Assembly (NCBI GenBank): GCA_900317905.1
Contig: ONIN01000007.1
Span: 1 to 64,000 of the forward strand
Source of the DNA: an uncultured Eubacteriales bacterium
Lineage (GTDB): Bacteria > Bacillota > Clostridia > Oscillospirales > Oscillospiraceae
Direction: 5' to 3'
DNA length: 64,000 nucleotides
The position numbers were made by a program, and so were the translations under genes. The notes under the pieces were generated by a model that had not been told where the DNA came from, ran no database searches, and worked only from the letters and a program-made list of their open reading frames with translations. Below are positions 5,632-19,827 of the stretch, piece by piece (position 1 is the stretch's first letter; every line of letters starts with the position of its first letter).

Positions 5632-7902
5632 TCAGTTGAGCTCGATGTTCTCGATCTCAGCCAGCCAGCCGTAGTAGGTGGTGATATCGGGAGTCACAGT
5701 GTCGAGATTCACGCGCTCGCTGGAGAAGATGATCGCGTTCTGACGCTGATAGACAGGAACCTCAACGGCCCAGTCAACGATGATGTCCAGGCAGCTCTTG
5801 TACATCTGCTTACGGAAGGACTGATCCAGGCTCTCGCGGGCTTCCATGATCAGCTGGTCCAGCTCCTCGTCAGCGATGTCGTACATGTAGTTGGAGCCAC
5901 CGGCCTCGCCGCCCTGGCTGCCGGAGTAGTAGACCTGATACATATCCGGGTCAGGAGTGGCACCCCAGGCGGCGCACCACATAGGAACCTGGTCGGCCTC
6001 GATGCCGGTCCAGAGGTCAGCGGAGTTGGCAAGGTCTTTCACAACCAGCTCGAAGCCGATCTTGGCAAAGGCGTCCTTGGCCAGGTTCAGCATCATGAAG
6101 GAGGGGTGATCGCCAGCGCCGTCGGCGGGGATCCAGACTTCGTAGCTCAGGGCAGCGCCTTCGGGAGCAGCGGTCAGCTTGCCGTCAGTGACGGTGTAGC
6201 CGGCAGCCTCGAAGTAACCCAGGGCGGCCTTCAGAGCGGCCTCCTCACGGGCGGCGTCGTCCATGTCAGAGGTGTAGATGTCGTTGCCGTCCACGTCCTT
6301 GCTGAAGGCAATGGCGTAGTCAGCATCGGTGGCCTGCGGAGCAGCCCAGGAGGTGTTGGAGATCGGGTAGTTGATGACGGAAGCAACGCCGGCGCCATAG
6401 TAGCTGTCGACGGTGACGTCACGGAAGTTGGAGAACACGGTGGCGAGGGCCTTGCGCAGGTTCTTGGAAGCGTCGGAGCCGATGTCGCCGCCCACGTTCA
6501 CGGCCTTGGCGCTGATGCCCAGGTAGCCGTAGCCGAGGTTGTCAACAGTGTTGGTGGTGATGACAGGACCGTTCACATCGTCGTTGCCATTGGCGGCCTT
6601 GATGGCGTCAACGGTGTCCTTGGAGTAGCTGGGATCGGTGATGTCGATGGTGCCGGTGGTGACGCCATTGAGCTTATCCTTATCGCTGGACTCCAGGAAC
6701 TGGACGTACTGGGTCTTGGGAGCGCCCTTGAAGTAGTTCTCGTTGGCCTCGAAGTAAACGACGCCGTTCTCGAACTTCAGGAACTTGTAGGGGCCGGCGC
6801 CCATGGGCTCAGTGGTCTTGGCCTTCACGCCGGACAGGTCGCCCTTGACGAAGCCGAACTGGTTGTTGTCATAGTCATAGAGGCTGGCGTCGCCATAGTA
6901 GTGCATGGGAGCCACGGTGATGCCCATCTGATAGATGGCGGGAGCATCCGCCTTGGTGAGGGTCACGCGGACGGAGTAATCGCCGGTCTTCTCGATGCCG
7001 GTGATGGAGTCAGCGCTGTCGCCGGTCTTGACACCCTTGGTGTAGTCGGCGAAATCGGGGAACAGCTCGGAGAAATCGACATCAGCGGCCTCGGTGGAGA
7101 CGGCAGTGGGGATGTCGTTGTCATAAGCCTCGAGGATCGCAGCCCAGAAATCAGCGGCGGTGGCGTCCTCAGCCAGCTCGTAGCCCCAGGTAGCGGCGCA
7201 CTCGGCGACAGAAGCGTCAGCCTCGTTGTACTCGTTGTTGATGCAGAAATCAACAATGCTCTGGGCGAAAGCCGGGCCGGCCTCGTTGAGGGACTTCCAG
7301 AAAGCGGTCTGCTCTTCCTCGGTCCAGTTGGTGAAGTCGGTGTTGTCCTCACCGGCCTCCAGCAGCAGGCTGTAGAGGCTGGACATGCCGGAACGATACT
7401 CTTCCATGCCGGCGATGGGCAGCGCAAAGAAGGTGGAGTTGCCGTCATAGGTGGGGTCAGACAGAACGTACATGGAGAAGATGACGTCGTCGGCGGTGAG
7501 CTTCTCACCATCGGAGAAGGTGACGTCGTCGCGCAGATCGAAATCGTATGCGATGGTGCCGTCGTCGTTCTCGGTGATGGTCAGGTCAGCCAGTCCCGTG
7601 TACTCGTAATCGTTGCCGTTGTAGGGACGGGTCTCGCCGGTCTTGCCCTTCTCGACGATGGCGCCCTGACGGTCAATGTCGAGCAGGTTGACAGCCGTCA
7701 TGGCCCAGACGTCCTGGTCGTAAGCAGTCTCCGAGAAGAAGGGAGAGAACTTACTGGAGAAGTTGGAATAGCCGACGACCAGCGGCTTGCTGCCGCTCTC
7801 AGCCGGTTCGGCGCTTCCGCTGGATTCCTGCTTGGTGCCGCAGCCTGCGAACAAGGCGAGGCACATCACAAGAGCCAGCAACAGTGCGATGGTTCTTTTC
7901 AC
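5632..7902 (-). CDS. Peptide ABC transporter substrate-binding lipoprotein (SBP family 5)
   Basis: 756 residues, longer than typical family-5 binding proteins (about 530-600). A lipoprotein signal (MKRTIALLLALVMCLALFAG then Cys21) anchors it outside the membrane, where it would deliver peptides to OppBC. Family-5 features such as the early SKFSPFF and DDVTFSDGEKLTADDV segments and the late Trp/Tyr-rich lobe are visible. An alanine- and acid-rich stretch around 160-290 accounts for part of the extra length. Start is GTG with AAGGAGG about 10 bases upstream. It is the first gene of the opp cluster. Confidence 0.9.
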   Translation of the reverse strand: MKRTIALLLALVMCLALFAGCGTKQESSGSAEPAESGSKPLVVGYSNFSSKFSPFFSETAYDQDVWAMTAVNLLDIDRQGAIVEKGKTGETRPYNGNDYEYTGLADLTITENDDGTIAYDFDLRDDVTFSDGEKLTADDVIFSMYVLSDPTYDGNSTFFALPIAGMEEYRSGMSSLYSLLLEAGEDNTDFTNWTEEEQTAFWKSLNEAGPAFAQSIVDFCINNEYNEADASVAECAATWGYELAEDATAADFWAAILEAYDNDIPTAVSTEAADVDFSELFPDFADYTKGVKTGDSADSITGIEKTGDYSVRVTLTKADAPAIYQMGITVAPMHYYGDASLYDYDNNQFGFVKGDLSGVKAKTTEPMGAGPYKFLKFENGVVYFEANENYFKGAPKTQYVQFLESSDKDKLNGVTTGTIDITDPSYSKDTVDAIKAANGNDDVNGPVITTNTVDNLGYGYLGISAKAVNVGGDIGSDASKNLRKALATVFSNFRDVTVDSYYGAGVASVINYPISNTSWAAPQATDADYAIAFSKDVDGNDIYTSDMDDAAREEAALKAALGYFEAAGYTVTDGKLTAAPEGAALSYEVWIPADGAGDHPSFMMLNLAKDAFAKIGFELVVKDLANSADLWTGIEADQVPMWCAAWGATPDPDMYQVYYSGSQGGEAGGSNYMYDIADEELDQLIMEARESLDQSFRKQMYKSCLDIIVDWAVEVPVYQRQNAIIFSSERVNLDTVTPDITTYYGWLAEIENIELN

Positions 7903-13572: not shown

Positions 13573-13664
13573 GGAGAAGTACCCAAGAGGCCGAAGGGGC
13601 TCCCCTGCTAAGGGAGTAGGCTGTGATAAGCGGCGCGAGGGTTCAAATCCCTCCTTCTCCGCCA
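13573..13664 (+). tRNA. tRNA-Ser(GCU)
   Basis: 92 nt class II tRNA with encoded CCA. The acceptor stem GGAGAAG pairs with CTTCTCC, the anticodon loop CTGCTAA gives GCT, there is a long variable arm, and the T-arm is GAGGGTTCAAATCCCTC. Its last 23 bases are duplicated at 19805-19827 and form the left end of the integrated element. Confidence 0.95.
13642..13664 (+). repeat. attL: 23-bp repeat in the tRNA-Ser 3' end
   Basis: Bases 13642-13664 (T-arm through CCA) are identical to 19805-19827. The tRNA stays intact after insertion. Confidence 0.92.
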
Positions 13665-13671
13665 TGAAAAA

Positions 13672-13706
13672 AGTCTTGTATTCCAACGGATACAAGGCTT
13701 TTTCTT
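13672..13706 (+). terminator. Terminator downstream of tRNA-Ser, supplied by the element
   Basis: The CTTGTAT/ATACAAG stem (13675-13681 with 13690-13696) is followed by a T-rich run. It replaces the native terminator now displaced to 19831. Confidence 0.7.
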
Positions 13707-13724
13707 TGTCTATTTTTACTGTTT

Positions 13725-13783
13725 TACCCCTAAGTTTACCCCTTACAGAAAGAAATACCCCATTTTCGGGCATAGTTTACCCC
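13725..13783 (+). repeat. Left array of TACCCC repeats (candidate integrase arm sites)
   Basis: TACCCC occurs at 13725, 13737, 13756 and 13778, all in the same orientation, between attL and the integrase gene. Four more copies in the same orientation sit at the right end (19643-19683). Such paired sets are typical of arm-type sites bound by the N-terminal domain of tyrosine integrases. Confidence 0.65.
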
Positions 13784-13815
13784 TGTCGGATTGACTCCGG
13801 CAGGGGATTTTTTTA
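13780..13815 (+). terminator. Hairpin with T run overlapping the integrase 3' end
   Basis: CCCCTG(T)CGGA pairs with TCCGGCAGGGG and is followed by ATTTTTTT on the plus strand. It would stop rightward transcription from the tRNA side before it runs antisense into the integrase gene. Confidence 0.6.
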
Positions 13816-14979
13816 TCCATGCTTTCTGATTGTATCGTAGTAGCTTTGTACTCTGTCGGCGGTGTCTTTCATCATCTGTTCTGATGTATGCGCGTATACG
13901 TTCAGCGTGAAAGATGCGGTTGCATGACCTAACAAATCTTGTACGCTTTTAATATCCGCGCCGTTAGCAATGGCGACAGTTGCGGCGGTGTGCCGGAGAT
14001 CATGCGGGCGTGCGTCTGGGCGTCCAATACTGGCGGCGATTCTCTTAAAGCGATTATAGAAAGTTGCGGTTGCAAAGTGCTTTCCCAATTCGTCCGTGAA
14101 AACTAAATCATCTGGATTCGACCATGCACGCCCAGCTTTCAAACGGTTTTCAAGCTGCCTAATATGTTCCTGTTTGAGATATTCAAAGGCAATGGCGGGA
14201 GGTTCAATCGTGCGCGGTCTGCTGCTTTTGGTGGACGGTGCAATATAATACGCCTTGTCGCCGTCCTTGCGCTTTTGGAGCTGCTGACTAATGACAATCC
14301 TCTTGCGTTTGAAATCAATCTGTTTCCACGATAAGCCGAGGCATTCACCCTCGCGCAGCCCTGCGAACAGGCAAAGCGCGTATGCGTTGCGCATGGGGCT
14401 ATCCTCGATTGCGTCCAGAAACATCGGGATTTCTTCATCTGTCAAAGGCTTGATTTCTTTCCTTGTAGCTTTTGGAAGCTCCGCGCCGTCACAAGGATTT
14501 GAAGCAATGATACCCTGCTTGATAGCGATTGAAAACGCCTTGTGAAGAACAGCGGAAACATTCTTGACGGTTTTACCCGACGCGCCCGCCTCTGTCATTG
14601 CATTATAAACGCGCTGGATATGCGATCCTCTGACGGCTTGAAGCTCGACAGCGCCGATATACGGCGTTATATGATTGCGGATTATGCCTTGATAGCTGGA
14701 ATAGGTTAGCGGCTTAACCTTGTTTGCACAGTATGTTGTGAGCCATTCTTGCAGCCATGCGGAAACGGTGATTTTGTTAGGCGCTTTGTATGTACCCTTA
14801 TCAAGTGCGCTAAGTATCTCCGTCATTTTCTGGCGGACTTCTTTTTGCGTCTTTCCGTAAATGCTTTTGCGATCCGGCTTGCCTGTTCCGGGATTCGTGC
14901 CGATGGTTACACGAGCCTCCCAAGTGCCGTCCTTGCGCTGTCGAATACTTCCGCCGCCTTGTGCGTTACGCTTTGCCAT
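13813..14979 (-). CDS. int: Tyrosine recombinase / site-specific integrase
   Basis: 388 residues. It catalyses insertion and excision of the element at tRNA-Ser. An AP2-like arm-binding domain (about 6-50, GSIRQRKDGTWEARV) is followed by a SAM-like core-binding domain (about 60-165) and a catalytic domain (about 180-380). The catalytic Arg is in FAGLREGE, the HxxR box is HDLRHTAAT, then LLGHATASFT and the nucleophile Tyr in NVYAH. Start ATG 14979 follows GAGGAGG; the longer frame lacks a site. It overlaps the repressor gene by 14 bases, so the two are co-transcribed. Confidence 0.95.
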   Translation of the reverse strand: MAKRNAQGGGSIRQRKDGTWEARVTIGTNPGTGKPDRKSIYGKTQKEVRQKMTEILSALDKGTYKAPNKITVSAWLQEWLTTYCANKVKPLTYSSYQGIIRNHITPYIGAVELQAVRGSHIQRVYNAMTEAGASGKTVKNVSAVLHKAFSIAIKQGIIASNPCDGAELPKATRKEIKPLTDEEIPMFLDAIEDSPMRNAYALCLFAGLREGECLGLSWKQIDFKRKRIVISQQLQKRKDGDKAYYIAPSTKSSRPRTIEPPAIAFEYLKQEHIRQLENRLKAGRAWSNPDDLVFTDELGKHFATATFYNRFKRIAASIGRPDARPHDLRHTAATVAIANGADIKSVQDLLGHATASFTLNVYAHTSEQMMKDTADRVQSYYDTIRKHG

Positions 14980-15544
14980 TGCTTTCGTCCTCCTCTCTGT
15001 ATTCATCCGCGCTTAATTTCATCTCGACGATGTTTGAAAAGTCTTTAGATATGCTCCATAACCGCGCCATTTGCATACTCTGTAGCTCCATTGCAAAATC
15101 ACGATCGTTGTTGTCGAAAGCATCCCTTTCAAGACGGTGATAAGTCAAATACTCCGCTATACACCCAAACATGTATTCTGCCTCATCCGCGTCGAGTATT
15201 CTTGATAAATAATCTGGATAAAACTTGCGCCGATCTTCTGAACTTTTCCATTCTAGCAATGTTGTTACTGCTGATTCACTCAACCCGGTTTGCTTGCATA
15301 TATCGGATGCCTGCCGCGTTAATTCTGGATATTCTCCCAAAAGATGCCCCATATCGCAGCCAAGCGCATTGCATAGTATTGAAGCTTGTTCAAACGTCAT
15401 TTCCCCAGTACCTTTTTCCCATTTAGATACTGTCTGTCTTGTTGTAAAACAGGTTTTGGCTAATGCCTCTAGCGATAAATGTAATTGCTTTCTGCGCTTT
15501 TGTATGATTTCCCCTGTCTTTTTCAAATCATAAATGTTATTCAA
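14966..15544 (-). CDS. XRE-family repressor of the element
   Basis: 192 residues. The N-terminal HTH_3 domain (about 6-65, IIQKRRKQLHLSLEALAKTCFTTRQTVSKWEKG) is joined to an unrecognised C-terminal domain rich in acidic and aromatic residues, which could bind an inducer or anti-repressor. It faces left in an operon with int and is divergent from the replication genes, the position of Stl-type master repressors in phage satellites. Start is TTG at 15544 (AAAGGA 10 bases upstream); the TTG at 15553 is only one base from that site. That it represses the rightward operon is inferred. Confidence 0.85.
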   Translation of the reverse strand: MNNIYDLKKTGEIIQKRRKQLHLSLEALAKTCFTTRQTVSKWEKGTGEMTFEQASILCNALGCDMGHLLGEYPELTRQASDICKQTGLSESAVTTLLEWKSSEDRRKFYPDYLSRILDADEAEYMFGCIAEYLTYHRLERDAFDNNDRDFAMELQSMQMARLWSISKDFSNIVEMKLSADEYREEDESNGKA

Positions 15545-15588
15545 AATAACCAAATCCTTTCTGCCAAACTCTTTATAGTTAAAAATAC

Positions 15589-15621
15589 GTTATATACAAT
15601 AACATTATACGATGGTAGAAT
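15589..15621 (+). promoter_or_regulatory. Candidate rightward promoter and repressor operator
   Basis: A palindrome GTTAT-ATACA-ATAAC (15589-15603) overlaps a possible -35 (TATACA, 15593-15598), 17 bases before TAGAAT (15616-15621). Placement between divergent repressor and early genes suits a control switch. The promoter match is moderate. Confidence 0.4.
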
Positions 15622-15664
15622 GAGAATGTCAAGAGGACAGAAAAAGAAAAAGCGAGGTGAGATC

Positions 15665-15826
15665 GTGGATATGTCCGAACAGGCACGCGCAGCGCAGCGC
15701 GAGTATAAACGTCAATGGAGGCAAAAAAACAAAGACCGCATTGCTGAACACAACAAAAGATACTGGGAACGCAAAGCCCAGAAAATAGCGGCTGAAAATG
15801 GAGGCAAGAATGCAGACAAAGACTGA
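15665..15826 (+). CDS. Small basic protein, first rightward gene of the element
   Basis: 53 residues, almost entirely charged helix (SEQARAAQREYKRQWRQKNKDRIAEHNKRYWERKAQ). Proteins of this kind with Tyr/Trp-Arg periodicity are common in phages and small elements and may bind nucleic acid; function unknown. I chose the GTG at 15665 with GAGGTGAG 7 bases upstream; the ATG at 15671 is also possible. It overlaps the next gene by 17 bases. Confidence 0.6.
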   Translation: MDMSEQARAAQREYKRQWRQKNKDRIAEHNKRYWERKAQKIAAENGGKNADKD

Positions 15827-16010
15827 AAAACTGGCACTTTCCCCGGACGAGCTTTGCCCGCTGCTGGGCATTAGTCGCCCGGTCGCGTATGAGCTATGCA
15901 AACGCGCAGATTTCCCGGCAATTCGGATTTCCCCGCGACGGATCATCATTCCGCTCGATGCGCTGCAACGCTGGCTTGACCAAGAGGCAGCGGGAAAAGC
16001 ATCGGTTTGA
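15810..16010 (+). CDS. Excisionase-like helix-turn-helix protein
   Basis: 66 residues matching the HTH_17 / excisionase-type DNA-binding fold: KLALSPDELCPLLGISRPVA, then a basic wing (RISPRRIIIP) and LDALQRWLDQ. It may direct excision with the integrase or activate the element. The start at 15810 has GGAGG 5 bases upstream. It lies 13 bases before the ATPase gene, as in satellite and ICE early operons. Confidence 0.8.
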   Translation: MQTKTEKLALSPDELCPLLGISRPVAYELCKRADFPAIRISPRRIIIPLDALQRWLDQEAAGKASV

Positions 16011-16023
16011 GAGGTGAAGTGGT

Positions 16024-17148
16024 TTGCTGATTGCCGAACCCAAACATACCCTACTTACCGCAGCAGATGTTGAGGCCGGGCAACGCGCATTCTTGCGTCA
16101 CCCAGATTTCCCGCTCGGTGAAGTTGTAATAATTGCCGGAGCGGGAGGAATCGGAAAAGGCCAATTCGGGAGCTATGTGCTAGCGTGTCTTTCAGCCGGG
16201 ATTGACTATCGAACCGGGAGAGCAGTACACGAACCCTGTAACAGTCTATTTGTCAGCACAGAGGATACTTGCACAGATATTCGGGCAAGGCTTGACCGTG
16301 CAGATGTGGACGCGGATTTACACCGAATTTTTATGGTTGATAAGCTGGCGAGTTATGAAATGGGACTGACTGTCTCCGATGATACAGGACTATCCAAAAT
16401 CGAAGGATTGATTCTTGATACTCAGTCGAAGTTTTCGATCCTAGATCCCTTGCAGGGCTTGTGTGGGCGCGATGTAGATATGTCACGAACCAACCATATC
16501 CGGCAGATCATGCACGGATTAGCAGCCATTGCAGAGCGTACACAGTCGGTTATTTGCCTGTTTGCCCATCCGAATAAGCGTCAAAGCATTGCAAGCGCCA
16601 ACGACCTAATTAGTGGAAGTACAGATATAGTATCTGCTGCCCGCTCGGTGCTGTTAATCATGCCGGACTTTGAGACGAACGAAGCAGATACACGGCTGAT
16701 AATTCACACAAAGTCGAATCATGCAAAGCCGGGAAAGACTATGCGATTTAGGATTGCAGAGGGCAACCGTGTTATCGGCTTGTCTGATATAACCGCTGCC
16801 GACGCTGTGGAAGCTGTCAACTATAGGAAACTATCAAAAACAAATGCAAAAGGATTACATGAGAACTACGAAGAACTATTTATTAAAGGCGTCAAAAGAC
16901 TTCTTTCAACTTCTGGAAGCCCCACGCAGATTAGCTTTAGGGCATTTGTTGAACAGTATGCACCCAGCTTTACCGGAAAACCGAAACGCATATTAGACGA
17001 TCTGTCGGAGCGGCTTTTGAATGAGTACGGAATCATTCTCCGCACGACAACGGGGAAATCGGAAATCCGTGTCAACGGTGACAGGGGCTTTCGCTGTGAA
17101 TGGGAATCGCCGCCAATAGAGGAAGTAACGGAAGGACTTCCGTTATAA
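16024..17148 (+). CDS. RepA-like RecA-fold ATPase / replicative helicase
   Basis: 374 residues. A RecA/RepA-type AAA domain covers about 30-225. The P-loop reads GAGGIGKG (about 39-46), with Gly where Ser/Thr is usual. A Walker-B-like SILDPLQG follows near 139-146 and a sensor-like ICLFAHPNKRQS near 178-189. The C-terminal third (about 270-360) resembles a winged-helix DNA-binding segment. Phages and small elements use such proteins to unwind their origins. It starts at TTG after GAGAGGTG. An iteron-like block begins 2 bases after its stop, which supports a replication role. The changed P-loop residue may alter nucleotide binding. Confidence 0.8.
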   Translation: MLIAEPKHTLLTAADVEAGQRAFLRHPDFPLGEVVIIAGAGGIGKGQFGSYVLACLSAGIDYRTGRAVHEPCNSLFVSTEDTCTDIRARLDRADVDADLHRIFMVDKLASYEMGLTVSDDTGLSKIEGLILDTQSKFSILDPLQGLCGRDVDMSRTNHIRQIMHGLAAIAERTQSVICLFAHPNKRQSIASANDLISGSTDIVSAARSVLLIMPDFETNEADTRLIIHTKSNHAKPGKTMRFRIAEGNRVIGLSDITAADAVEAVNYRKLSKTNAKGLHENYEELFIKGVKRLLSTSGSPTQISFRAFVEQYAPSFTGKPKRILDDLSERLLNEYGIILRTTTGKSEIRVNGDRGFRCEWESPPIEEVTEGLPL

Positions 17149-17149
17149 A

Positions 17150-17239
17150 TCCCGATTCCACAACTTAAAAAATCGGGAAATCGGTAAAAGGGCAAGAAAC
17201 TATCCCGATTTCCCGATTATTAAAGCAGACAAATCGGGA
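17150..17239. other. Candidate replication origin: iteron-like repeats
   Basis: Five copies of AATCGGGA or its complement occur at 17150-17157, 17171-17178, 17203-17210, 17211-17218 and 17232-17239. Two of them form a perfect 14-bp inverted repeat (17171-17184 with 17205-17218) around an A-rich centre. The block lies directly after the RepA-like gene, the usual site of origins in plasmids and phage satellites. A complex regulatory site for the lipoprotein gene is the alternative. Confidence 0.65.
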
Positions 17240-17266
17240 AGAAGTTACTCATTTTTGGAGGAACAA

Positions 17267-17578
17267 ATGAAAAAACATATTGCATTGATAATCCTGCTAT
17301 TTACCGTCTTTCTGTTGGCAGGATGCAATCAGTGGGAGCGTGTTCTATACGACGGGGACACCATGAAGATCACGCGCACAGGCGCTATAACGACGATTAC
17401 GGACAAGATCAGCGGCGAGGCGTACACACTTCACCAAGTCCGTCAAAAGCAATCTGAGGCAAAAACAGAGCCTTATACGGCGGTTCATACGCCGTCGATG
17501 ACGATTACCATTCTCCCCGGCGGCTTTCAAGTTGTGTCCGGGAATACATCTTACACATTCACGAAACGGAGGTTTTGA
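17267..17578 (+). CDS. Small lipoprotein carried by the element
   Basis: 103 residues. A lipoprotein signal (MKKHIALIILLFTVFLLAG then Cys) is followed by a short beta-rich domain (GDTMKITRTGAITTITDKIS ... PSMTITILPGGFQVVSG). GGAGGA lies 4 bases before ATG 17267. It would sit on the outer face of the membrane; possible roles are host-surface alteration or superinfection exclusion (speculative). It is the one plausible accessory gene of the element. Its stop abuts the next start (TGA then ATG). Confidence 0.75.
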   Translation: MKKHIALIILLFTVFLLAGCNQWERVLYDGDTMKITRTGAITTITDKISGEAYTLHQVRQKQSEAKTEPYTAVHTPSMTITILPGGFQVVSGNTSYTFTKRRF

Positions 17579-17893
17579 ATGAACAACGCATTTATTCGGA
17601 GTCATTGCGACGAAAACGGAAAACGAAGCTTTTCGATTCACTTCATCGTTGACGCGATTGGTCACGGCGACGATGCCCCGGCGCTTTGTACTCTGCCGAC
17701 ATTGGAACAGGCGGCCATGCTATGCAGGTACATCAACGGCGGCAACATGGACAAGCAGGAGCGTGATTCTGTTTCTGTTGCGCTTCAAGTCGAAGCAAAA
17801 GCATATAGGAAACGAAAGAAAACAGTTGCAAAAGTACCCGAAACCGCCACGAATGGAGGTGGAGGATTTGCCAAAAACCCCGGTCTATCCTGA
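17579..17893 (+). CDS. Hypothetical protein of the element
   Basis: 104 residues, no recognised family. The first half looks like a small alpha/beta domain (RSFSIHFIVDAIGHGDDAPALCTLPTLEQAAMLCRYINGG); the C-terminus is basic (AKAYRKRKKTVAKV). It starts directly after the lipoprotein stop and overlaps the next gene by 26 bases, so it belongs to the same operon. Confidence 0.65.
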   Translation: MNNAFIRSHCDENGKRSFSIHFIVDAIGHGDDAPALCTLPTLEQAAMLCRYINGGNMDKQERDSVSVALQVEAKAYRKRKKTVAKVPETATNGGGGFAKNPGLS

Positions 17894-18242
17894 TGAAATT
17901 TTGCTGGCCGCTCTGCTGCAAGCTGGATCAATCCGAAAAGCCGCTGCCCTTGCTGGTTGCGGTGTGACAACGATTCGCGAAAGATTGCGGAATGGTGATT
18001 TTCGGCGGCAGTATGACGCGCTGAAAGGCGAATTACTGCAAGAGGCGGCAGGGGAGCTTTCCGCAAAAATGGGAGCGGCTGTCGAGAGCTTGTCGGAGAT
18101 CATGGAAAACCCGGATAACTCCGCTGCTGTGCGTGTTCAGGCGGCTGGTGAACTACTCCGGCAGGGATTAAAATATGTTTCTGTCGCAGAGATCGAGCGC
18201 CGTGTCTCAGCGTTGGAGGCTACGCAGGAGGGCGAACAATGA
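17868..18242 (+). CDS. Helix-turn-helix protein, possible small-terminase-like
   Basis: 124 residues. The N-terminal HTH (ILLAALLQAGSIRKAAALAGCGVTTIRERLRNGDFRRQY) resembles the DNA-binding part of phage small terminases and related phage HTH proteins. It is followed by a helical segment (LLQEAAGELSAKMGAAVESLSEI) and a C-terminal VSVAEIERRVSALE helix. I chose TTG 17868 with GGAGG 7 bases upstream; the ATG at 17853 lacks a site. In phage satellites a terS gene sits in this late position and redirects packaging; that role here is a hypothesis. Confidence 0.6.
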   Translation: MPKTPVYPDEILLAALLQAGSIRKAAALAGCGVTTIRERLRNGDFRRQYDALKGELLQEAAGELSAKMGAAVESLSEIMENPDNSAAVRVQAAGELLRQGLKYVSVAEIERRVSALEATQEGEQ

Positions 18243-18475
18243 AAAGTGTATTGTCACGATTGACGGCATTGGAGAATAAACACTTGTCAAAACCGCTGAT
18301 TGTACTTGCTCAGGACGAAAACGGCGAAAAGTCAAAAATGACAGTACAAGCCTTGATTGACAGTGGAAACCATTTCGTAAAAGTGTTGAGCGGCAGCAGC
18401 TTGTCAGATTTAGACCGCTTGCTATCGGCATTCCATGAGCGAGCGTTACAGGACGCGGAAAGGCAGACAAAATGA
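18239..18475 (+). CDS. Small hypothetical protein of the element
   Basis: 78 residues, unknown. It begins MKSVLSRLTALENKH, a start resembling the gene two downstream (MRSITARLNRLEATR), so the two may share an N-terminal helix. It overlaps both neighbours by 4 bases (ATGA), so it is translated in a coupled chain. Confidence 0.6.
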   Translation: MKSVLSRLTALENKHLSKPLIVLAQDENGEKSKMTVQALIDSGNHFVKVLSGSSLSDLDRLLSAFHERALQDAERQTK

Positions 18476-18654
18476 AGAATAAACCGCCGAAATGTATTGG
18501 AAAATATTTTGATGAGGTGAGTCGCCGACAGCGTGAGGCGTGGTTACGGTATATCGGCAGTAATGAAGATATTGAATTTCGGATTCATGGCAAGAGTTTT
18601 CATTTCATAATGGACAGCGGAAATAATCATGAGGTGACGAAATGCGATCCATAA
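18472..18654 (+). CDS. Very small hypothetical protein of the element
   Basis: 60 residues, unknown family, rich in charged and aromatic residues (FDEVSRRQREAWLRYIGSNEDIEFRIHG). It overlaps the previous gene by 4 and the next by 13 bases. Reality is supported mainly by the tight overlapping arrangement. Confidence 0.5.
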   Translation: MKNKPPKCIGKYFDEVSRRQREAWLRYIGSNEDIEFRIHGKSFHFIMDSGNNHEVTKCDP

Positions 18655-18935
18655 CGGCGCGGCTTAATCGTCTGGAGGCAACACGACCCCGATTATTCGC
18701 TGACATTCTCGCGCTAATAGACCGTCATGCGTTTTATGATGAGATAACACCACAGGAACAAGCCCGGTTTTGTGAGTTTATCGGGATCGAAAAGAAAGCA
18801 TTTGAAGATTGTAACAATATGGTGTTGGGTGATTGCCACGTTATGCTTGCAAAGTTTGACGCGCCGACGCCGGAAGAATTAGATCAACTTATCAAAGATA
18901 TTGAACACCATGTAAAATACGGAGGATCTTTATAA
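18642..18935 (+). CDS. Small hypothetical protein of the element
   Basis: 97 residues, unknown, mostly helical and acidic (LIDRHAFYDEITPQEQARFCEFIGIEKKAFEDC). Its N-terminus resembles that of the 78-residue protein at 18239. It shares one base with the next start (TAATG). Confidence 0.6.
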   Translation: MRSITARLNRLEATRPRLFADILALIDRHAFYDEITPQEQARFCEFIGIEKKAFEDCNNMVLGDCHVMLAKFDAPTPEELDQLIKDIEHHVKYGGSL

Positions 18936-19588
18936 TGAGTACATTTAACGTTTATGCACGAGAGCTTGATACTGTCGCCCGTGATGCATTTAAGGAACTG
19001 AGCGAAGCAAAGACGGCGCTTGACCGTGCCACGGAAAAGCGCGACGCATACCCCGAAAAGCACGGGATTGTAAATGCTGAATATGCGGCGAAAGCCGCTC
19101 GTGCAAAGGCTAATTTTGTCGAAGCCCGTGACAAGTATGACGTGCTCCGGCGGTCTCTGCCTGAGTCTTGCAACGGCAAAACTAAAGAAATCAGAGAGCG
19201 GCTTGAAAAATCACTTGCCGCACATTATGAGAAAAAGCCTGAAGCAATCGACGCAAACGCCCTCGCGCTGTTGCAGTCTGGTGTGCTTCGTCCTGACGAT
19301 TACGCAAATTTGTTTAATCGGTATGTGAAAGAATCAAACTTTACTATGCTCGCCCTTGTCGGCAAGTGTGCGGCAGATGCGGCAATTCCTATCGCTGAAA
19401 GAGATGGTGCAAATGCACCCGACGCTGTGCAGCTCCGCGTGATTGCTGCGAATGCAAAAACGTACAACGGCAATGCATACCGCGAGGCGTTTGATTATCT
19501 CGCGGACACCCTAAACCGAACTATGAAGAACACTTCCATGATTCCGCATTGGGATGAACTGACCGCTGAGACCGTCGATAGATTCTAA
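18935..19588 (+). CDS. Hypothetical coiled-coil protein, last gene of the element
   Basis: 217 residues. The N-terminal half (about 1-75) is a long heptad-rich helix (ELDTVARDAFKELSEAKTAL ...). The C-terminal half is a compact helical region (DANALALLQSGVLRPDDYANLFNRY). No family recognised; phage scaffold- or minor-structural-like proteins have similar coils. It ends 22 bases before a strong terminator that closes the rightward operon. Confidence 0.7.
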   Translation: MSTFNVYARELDTVARDAFKELSEAKTALDRATEKRDAYPEKHGIVNAEYAAKAARAKANFVEARDKYDVLRRSLPESCNGKTKEIRERLEKSLAAHYEKKPEAIDANALALLQSGVLRPDDYANLFNRYVKESNFTMLALVGKCAADAAIPIAERDGANAPDAVQLRVIAANAKTYNGNAYREAFDYLADTLNRTMKNTSMIPHWDELTAETVDRF

Positions 19589-19610
19589 AGCCATATTCCT
19601 TTCGAAGGGA

Positions 19611-19642
19611 GTCCGTCCGGGTAAAACCGGGCGGGCTTTCTT
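19611..19642 (+). terminator. Terminator closing the element's rightward operon
   Basis: A stem of about 11 bp (GTCCGTCCGGGT with ACCGGGCGGGC) and a TTTCTTT tail. Confidence 0.8.
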
Positions 19643-19683
19643 TACCCCAAATACTACCCCTTTTATACCCCTAAGAATACCCC
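19643..19683 (+). repeat. Right array of TACCCC repeats (candidate integrase arm sites)
   Basis: TACCCC at 19643, 19655, 19666 and 19678, spaced 11-12 bases (about one helical turn), in the same orientation as the left set. The following 120 bases to attR are AT-rich with no gene. Confidence 0.65.
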
Positions 19684-19804
19684 TTAGACGATTTTACTTG
19701 TTTGCATTATGCTATGTAGAATTATGAAAAATAGTAGAAATATCAATGGAAAACAAGACGTTAGATTATACTCAAAATAACTTAACTTCATAGGTTATGG
19801 AAAA

Positions 19805-19827
19805 TTCAAATCCCTCCTTCTCCGCCA
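19805..19827 (+). repeat. attR: 23-bp copy of the tRNA-Ser 3' end
   Basis: Identical to 13642-13664 and not preceded by any tRNA body, so it marks the right boundary of the element. Confidence 0.92.

Follow-up and report, generated by a model that had tools for sequence, protein, structure and literature searches.

The stretch analysed here (hereafter, the window) comprises positions 1 to 64,000 of contig ONIN01000007.1 (GenBank assembly GCA_900317905.1), from an uncultured Oscillospiraceae bacterium related to Oscillibacter, and it contains a 6.2-kb foreign DNA element (13642-19827) integrated at a serine tRNA gene. Two exact 23-bp repeats located 6163 bp apart form the cores of the left and right attachment sites, attL (13642-13664) and attR (19805-19827). 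The target gene, tRNA-Ser(GCT) (13573-13664, plus strand), is intact at attL and remains whole because the left copy of the repeat is its own 3′ end. The left and right flanks were each searched against ten genomes of the genus, the host genome included. Left-flank homology ends at 13671 (sister genome G007) or 13664 (G008), and right-flank homology starts at 19803 (G007) or 19805 (G006); the edges of the element are correct, being matched by these homology breaks. A first-pass annotation, made from the sequence alone, had placed the 23-bp repeats in tRNA-Ser as we find them and had suggested looking for empty sites in close relatives; the sister genomes confirmed the edges, but a strictly empty tRNA-Ser site was not found among the ten genomes searched with the flanks. 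A single G007 contig contains both the tRNA end and the right flank, separated by approximately 8 kb with other genes; the site has accommodated more than one insert. The G007 insert (L140:56-8083) is a different 8-kb sequence in the same tRNA-Ser site; its right edge is marked by a degenerate att copy, and it includes an 865-aa frame with no PDB sequence match.

Within these borders, a tyrosine integrase gene (13813-15006; Phage_integrase E 7.9e-27, phrog_1 5.9e-77) and a Cro/CI-type repressor gene (14966-15553; HTH_3 E 8.3e-11) are transcribed leftward from the minus strand, the latter in the position of Stl/Rpr. The integrase sequence displays the R, HxxR, H, Y pattern of tyrosine integrases. 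An inverted repeat, I8 (15533-15606), with 18-nt arms that are 83% complementary, spans the start of the repressor gene and the divergent gap and is a candidate operator. On the plus strand, the rightward genes include that of an excisionase-like protein (15798-16010; HTH_17 E 1.2e-10), followed by that of an AAA_25 (RepA/DnaB-like) replication ATPase (16024-17148; AAA_25 E 4.2e-13, phrog_239 6.5e-14). No primase domain of this protein was matched in Pfam, its best PHROG being a primase/helicase family matched in the ATPase part, and no PDB sequence match was obtained. Directly 3′ of the ATPase gene (17150-17240), the heptamer ATCGGGA occurs in both orientations, with five copies in all, counting both strands, within 100 bp, a density equalled in 0 of 2000 first-order Markov shuffles; these units are likely the iterons of a replication origin. 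The type of replication gene varies among the members of the family described below and may be AAA_25, DnaB-like, DUF3987 or D5_N/primase.

Further downstream lies a gene (17853-18242, plus strand) whose assignment as a terminase small subunit (TerS) is weak from its own sequence and stronger through its family. Thirteen of 14 aligned members, that of the window included, matched phrog_2538, a terminase small subunit family (best 1.6e-8), and four further terminase-small PHROG families were matched by 8, 7, 4 and 4 of the 14. We collected 44 TerS loci, which include some near-copies. The large terminase subunit (TerL) was found by profile downstream in 11 of them, each time directly adjoining TerS; in four relatives, the next gene was identified by Pfam as Terminase_3 plus Terminase_3C, that is, the large subunit. 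A search of 50,697 phage records returned 35 TerS matches, corresponding to 31 Streptococcus satellite phages, three stool contigs and one rodent-stool virus; the lineage is nearly confined to satellites among the phage records searched. TerS relatives were present in 13 of 250 genomes of the host's family (own included). Single window proteins as queries confirmed zero relatives in IMG/VR, and alignment subsets of closer members were used as queries for the relatives in IMG/VR and GTDB genomes, which numbered 11 and 21 loci, respectively, several of the latter repeating loci already counted. Thirteen of the 21 GTDB loci are labelled Oscillospiraceae, Oscillibacter, Lawsonibacter or Dysosmobacter, the last two of which we assume to belong to the Oscillospiraceae, and eight carry labels of broader groups or Clostridium.

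Four small genes follow TerS on the plus strand, and several of these late genes overlap one another: orf78 (18239-18475), orf60 (18472-18654), orf97 (18642-18935) and orf217 (18935-19588). The N-termini of orf78 (MKSVLSRLTALE) and orf97 (MRSITARLNRLE) carry the same motif, which recurs in the proteins encoded after TerS. An I..RL..L-like pattern begins the first protein after TerS in 32 of the 35 called next genes (38 loci), compared with 29 of 461 other frames. This pattern was chosen after 28 loci had been viewed; outside that set, it was present in all 11 loci with a called gene, a number that includes some near-copies. In each of the three misses, the next gene encodes TerL, and four of the seven TerL next genes have the pattern. 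The motif was also found in the first annotated gene after TerS in three of five Streptococcus satellites, and a similar RL.ELE stretch occurs at the TerS C-terminus of many members. We propose that I..RL..L may be a helix common to these small proteins that docks onto TerS or a TerL. For orf60, there is no relative in the loci compared and no PADLOC match. The frequent last gene of the family is orf217. Its relatives occur in 7 of 250 family genomes and in 12 of the 394 genomes searched at order level, spread over six families (own included in both), in none of 72,556 plasmid records and in 3 of 50,697 phage records, which are short stool contigs that also encode TerS. It lies downstream in 22 of the 44 TerS loci, or in 15 of the 26 for which at least 4.5 kb of downstream sequence is available. 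The family is not uniform in this respect: orf217 is absent from the other 11 of these 26 loci, whereas L069, L070, L072 and L161-L167, some of which are cut by contig ends, have orf217 but no recognised TerS. A role of orf217 as a scaffold was considered on a PHROG match by 1 of 13 members (E 0.0053), and PDB matches included a dynamin-like protein (E 0.005, with no stretch passing alone); both were set aside as near chance, and orf217 profiles did not match the scaffold of Blautia phage Montmirail.

Of 13 other loci tested for attachment repeats, ten are flanked by copies of 23-49 bp, one of them at a tRNA gene, with a spacing of 5.8-15.0 kb; of the remaining three, one has a 17-bp repeat and two have none in the available sequence. 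The tRNAs used by relatives are tRNA-Thr, -Met, -Ser, -Arg, -Cys and -Pro. Terminal direct repeats of 37-127 bp were detected in the IMG/VR sequences L083, L088, L089 and L090 and in the stool contig MT836267 (L075); based on these repeats, the five sequences look circular or permuted. L075 encodes TerS, TerL, orf217, an integrase, a repressor and a replication gene, and 45 bp located between orf217 and the integrase gene (5823-5867), read by eye as a tRNA-Thr 3′ end, would correspond to attP. The source of this record is human stool from Mexico, a country in which DNase-treated virus-like particles have been studied (PMC8361208); MT836267 may possibly derive from that study. L088, L089 and L090 encode TerS, TerL and a ParA-like protein of 248 aa, with orf217 in L088 and L089. 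Because of the ParA-like proteins and the weak integrase matches that are their only ones, these three are possibly plasmid-living satellites.

Some members carry a single phage gene beyond TerS. Fifteen relatives, delimited or circular, yielded 107 frames of otherwise unknown nature; 85 of these, each at least 90 aa long, were scanned, although some overlapping frames are probably spurious. No capsid, portal, lysis or relaxase family was among all 23 Pfam families matched (E 1e-6) in these 85 proteins; one of the 23 was a tape-measure protein. In PHROGs, the scan matched 84 families, of which the 25 commonest were inspected. Five proteins, each checked on its own, match PHROG tape measures. 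Their top E values were 4e-127 (L064), 8e-226 (L068), 4e-99 (L093) and 1e-81 (L103); for L105, an unnamed family scored highest (5e-86), with the leading tape-measure family at 5e-21. These genes, of about 600-940 aa, lie downstream of TerS at L064:9601-11505, L068:2880-5504, L093:11622-14435, L103:11411-13216 and L105:4256-6316, and L064 and L093 are delimited by att sites. By similarity, a tape-measure gene is downstream in 12 of the 44 TerS loci, including L082, which also has TerL, and L108, in which the gene lies at a distance of 7.6 kb and may belong to a prophage. It would be unusual for a satellite to encode its own tail ruler. The window element has neither TerL nor a tape-measure gene.

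Three further regions were observed. In L108 (1-20214), TerL, portal and minor capsid genes lie upstream of a same-strand integrase, a helicase and a satellite-type TerS, and a tape-measure gene in two parts follows at a greater distance; it is possibly a satellite inside a prophage. L067:3404-6223, near a satellite TerS, encodes leucine-rich repeats and Roc-COR GTPase domains in one 940-aa frame. In G126, the host genome of satellite L064, a second tape-measure homologue (L171:17515-19647, 711 aa) lies in a minus-strand gene run; this region was considered as a possible helper, but it gave no TerL or portal match to the references used.

With regard to missing functions, Pfam and PHROGs covered 10 of the 12 proteins of the element, orf97 was searched in NCBIfam, and both orf60 and orf97 were searched in PADLOC. 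No relaxase, structural or secretion family was found in the proteins so scanned, and the element has no recognised gene for a capsid, a tail, a portal, a large terminase or lysis. In this respect, and in the leftward integrase and repressor, the rightward excisionase-like protein and RepA-like ATPase, the iterons, the lipoprotein (see below), the terminase-small-like protein and the overall order int-stl / xis-rep-ori-terS, the present analysis agrees with the first-pass annotation. That annotation had also held that relatives with full phage genes or with relaxase and conjugation genes would speak against a phage satellite; the 15 relatives scanned have single genes (TerL or tape-measure) in some cases and no full phage set, and no relaxase family was matched among their 85 proteins. 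Its conclusion of a helper-dependent satellite is well supported by the anatomy, by a TerS lineage nearly confined to satellites in the phage records searched and by the circular and stool relatives; a search of the host genome for three phage families revealed no helper.

Four groups of known elements resemble the one described here. The Streptococcus satellite phages (Javan series, MK448xxx; PMC6813308) share an integrase and a repressor gene on the left and replication genes, then TerS and small genes, on the right. Their TerS is homologous to that of the window, with about 30-36% identity, and, as in the window, a structural gene is annotated in none of the five records viewed whole. They differ in their hosts, in their size (8.2-12.9 kb in these five), in the DNA primase annotated in Javan586, 343 and 437 and in orf217, which is matched in none of the five; the part viewed of Javan292 includes a gene annotated as a minor capsid protein. 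Gram-positive phage-inducible chromosomal islands (PICIs) are defined (PMC6092414) by int and a master repressor in one direction and xis, rep, ori and then terS in the other, with a module of primase and replication initiator preceding ori, a size typically near 15 kb, no structural or lytic genes, a unique att site never occupied by prophages, PICI-unique genes, and induction by a phage with packaging into its particles and interference. The element has the order int-rpr / xis-rep-ori-...-terS of these islands and of the Staphylococcus aureus pathogenicity islands (SaPIs), and structural or lytic genes are recognised in neither; a known interference gene was likewise unrecognised in the element. 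TerS and orf217 would stand for the PICI-unique genes, which shows restriction to satellites rather than strict PICI status. Capsid-forming PICIs carry a packaging gene beyond TerS, as do those relatives of the window family that have TerL. Unlike these islands (mentioned in PMC11389934), the window and the 15 relatives have no recognised capsid family. The PICMI minimalist islands of Vibrionaceae (PMC10803314) similarly have a reduced gene content and no recognised capsid-remodelling gene, in different hosts.

Taken together, the element is very probably a minimal, helper-dependent, PICI-like phage satellite. This reading appears well supported by the gene order and families, the edges in sister genomes, the TerS family, the tRNA repeats and the circular relatives; integration, switch layout, replication and TerS are all read from sequence. 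The element probably relies on its own TerS for packaging and is carried by the particles of a different phage. In such a cycle, a helper phage protein would lift the repressor, as described for PICIs (PMC6092414); Xis and Int would excise the element, and the AAA_25 ATPase would copy it from the iterons. TerS would then mark the element DNA for the large terminase and heads of the helper, while orf78, orf97 and orf217 may bias packaging or head assembly towards the element. The helper would supply TerL, heads, tails and lysis, again by analogy with PICIs (PMC6092414).

Several observations weigh against this interpretation. The window TerS alone matched terminase-small PHROGs with E values of 0.0022 and 0.02, and small terminases were the top two hits of a PDB profile search with E values of 0.021 and 0.036 for one alignment and fell to 0.49 and 0.92, below unrelated chains, for a second. 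One TerS relative belongs to a 30.7-kb rodent-stool virus outside the satellites. The circular-looking forms are relatives, and neither a circular junction nor virion DNA of the window element itself was seen. In the host genome, which is 79.6% complete, Terminase_3, Phage_portal and TerL_ATPase, the only three families searched, were unmatched. Finally, the element measures 6.2 kb, compared with the ~15 kb given for PICIs in the account cited above, and no primase was recognised; because of these two differences, we do not file it as a PICI proper. Its way of working would be that of Gram-positive PICIs and Streptococcus satellite phages, but formal PICI membership is not claimed.

The weak PHROG and PDB scores of the window protein and its profiles are what one would expect if the satellite were real and its TerS-like protein a DNA-binding regulator, packaging proceeding through a cos or pac site of the helper. 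We consider this quite unlikely, given the homologues placed directly before TerL and the match of nearly all aligned members to a TerS family. It is very unlikely that the element is a degraded prophage that has lost its structural genes and is now immobile: the single phage genes of some relatives (TerL, tape measure) and the lack of a helper match in the host genome, for the three families searched, would fit such decay, but the listed genes keep intact frames, similar layouts recur at several tRNAs, orf217 spans six families, the TerS lineage is almost restricted to satellites among phage records, and circular-looking relatives exist. Least probable of all is conjugative transfer of the element as an integrative mobilizable element or as a small integrated plasmid replicating with Rep and iterons, as relatives of the AAA_25 ATPase on six plasmid records (three typed conjugative, two mobilizable) and the ParA-like proteins of L088-L090 might suggest, since the relaxase that characterises such elements was not found in the window proteins scanned or in the 85 proteins of relatives, and orf217 is unmatched in the 72,556 plasmid records.

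The element has several further features. Four TACCCC repeats at its left end (13719-13784) and four at its right end (19637-19686), all on the plus strand and absent from the first-pass annotation, are possible integrase arm sites. Eight copies fall in the two ends compared with one inside, which 0 of 2000 shuffles matched with end windows picked after the copies had been seen. L062, whose integrase matches that of the window at E ~1e-196, keeps the 12- and 19-bp spacing of TACCCC; the spacing is reversed in L072, and L059 has the 12-bp spacing alone. L071, which has the closest integrase (E 5e-200), has no TACCCC at its tRNA end, which counts against this idea, and we hold it with less confidence than the origin iterons. 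A 52-aa protein (15668-15826, plus strand; phrog_14214 7.6e-8) is present in several relatives. A small lipoprotein (17267-17578, plus strand), in which we read LLAGC as presumably the lipobox, has relatives in L056, L070, L089-L091 and L162 and zero matches in the phage-record search. It is followed by orf104 (17579-17893, plus strand; phrog_27678 9e-4), with weak relatives in L090 and L091. A defence role was considered and rejected, the PADLOC matches being weak only: HTH-type for the repressor, plus one to TerS.

More tentatively, it is possible that the window element is among the smallest members observed of an Oscillospiraceae-centred satellite family with a dedicated morphogenesis module (TerS, one or more proteins with a docking helix resembling the TerS tail, and orf217), in which the room after TerS holds, in other members, TerL, a tape-measure gene or, in L082, both. 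If so, members would lend TerS to the helper motor through adaptors, as in the window, or bring a full packaging motor or their own tail ruler, and orf217 would act on head assembly or size. New at the family level are the frequent last gene orf217, the TerL or tape-measure genes after TerS in some members and the short N-terminal motif of the protein after TerS; searches of an open-access library turned up no account of this family, a negative of little weight. A small number of cultured hosts have supplied the best-known phage satellites, and the Oscillospiraceae are common in the gut. The present analysis places a coherent satellite family in and around the Oscillospiraceae, one member of which is a circular form obtained from human stool. 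Individual steps of phage assembly can apparently be taken over by satellites, as the versions with TerS-TerL and with a tape-measure gene suggest, and a part in packaging or in helper interference can now be sought concretely in orf217 and in the proteins encoded after TerS.

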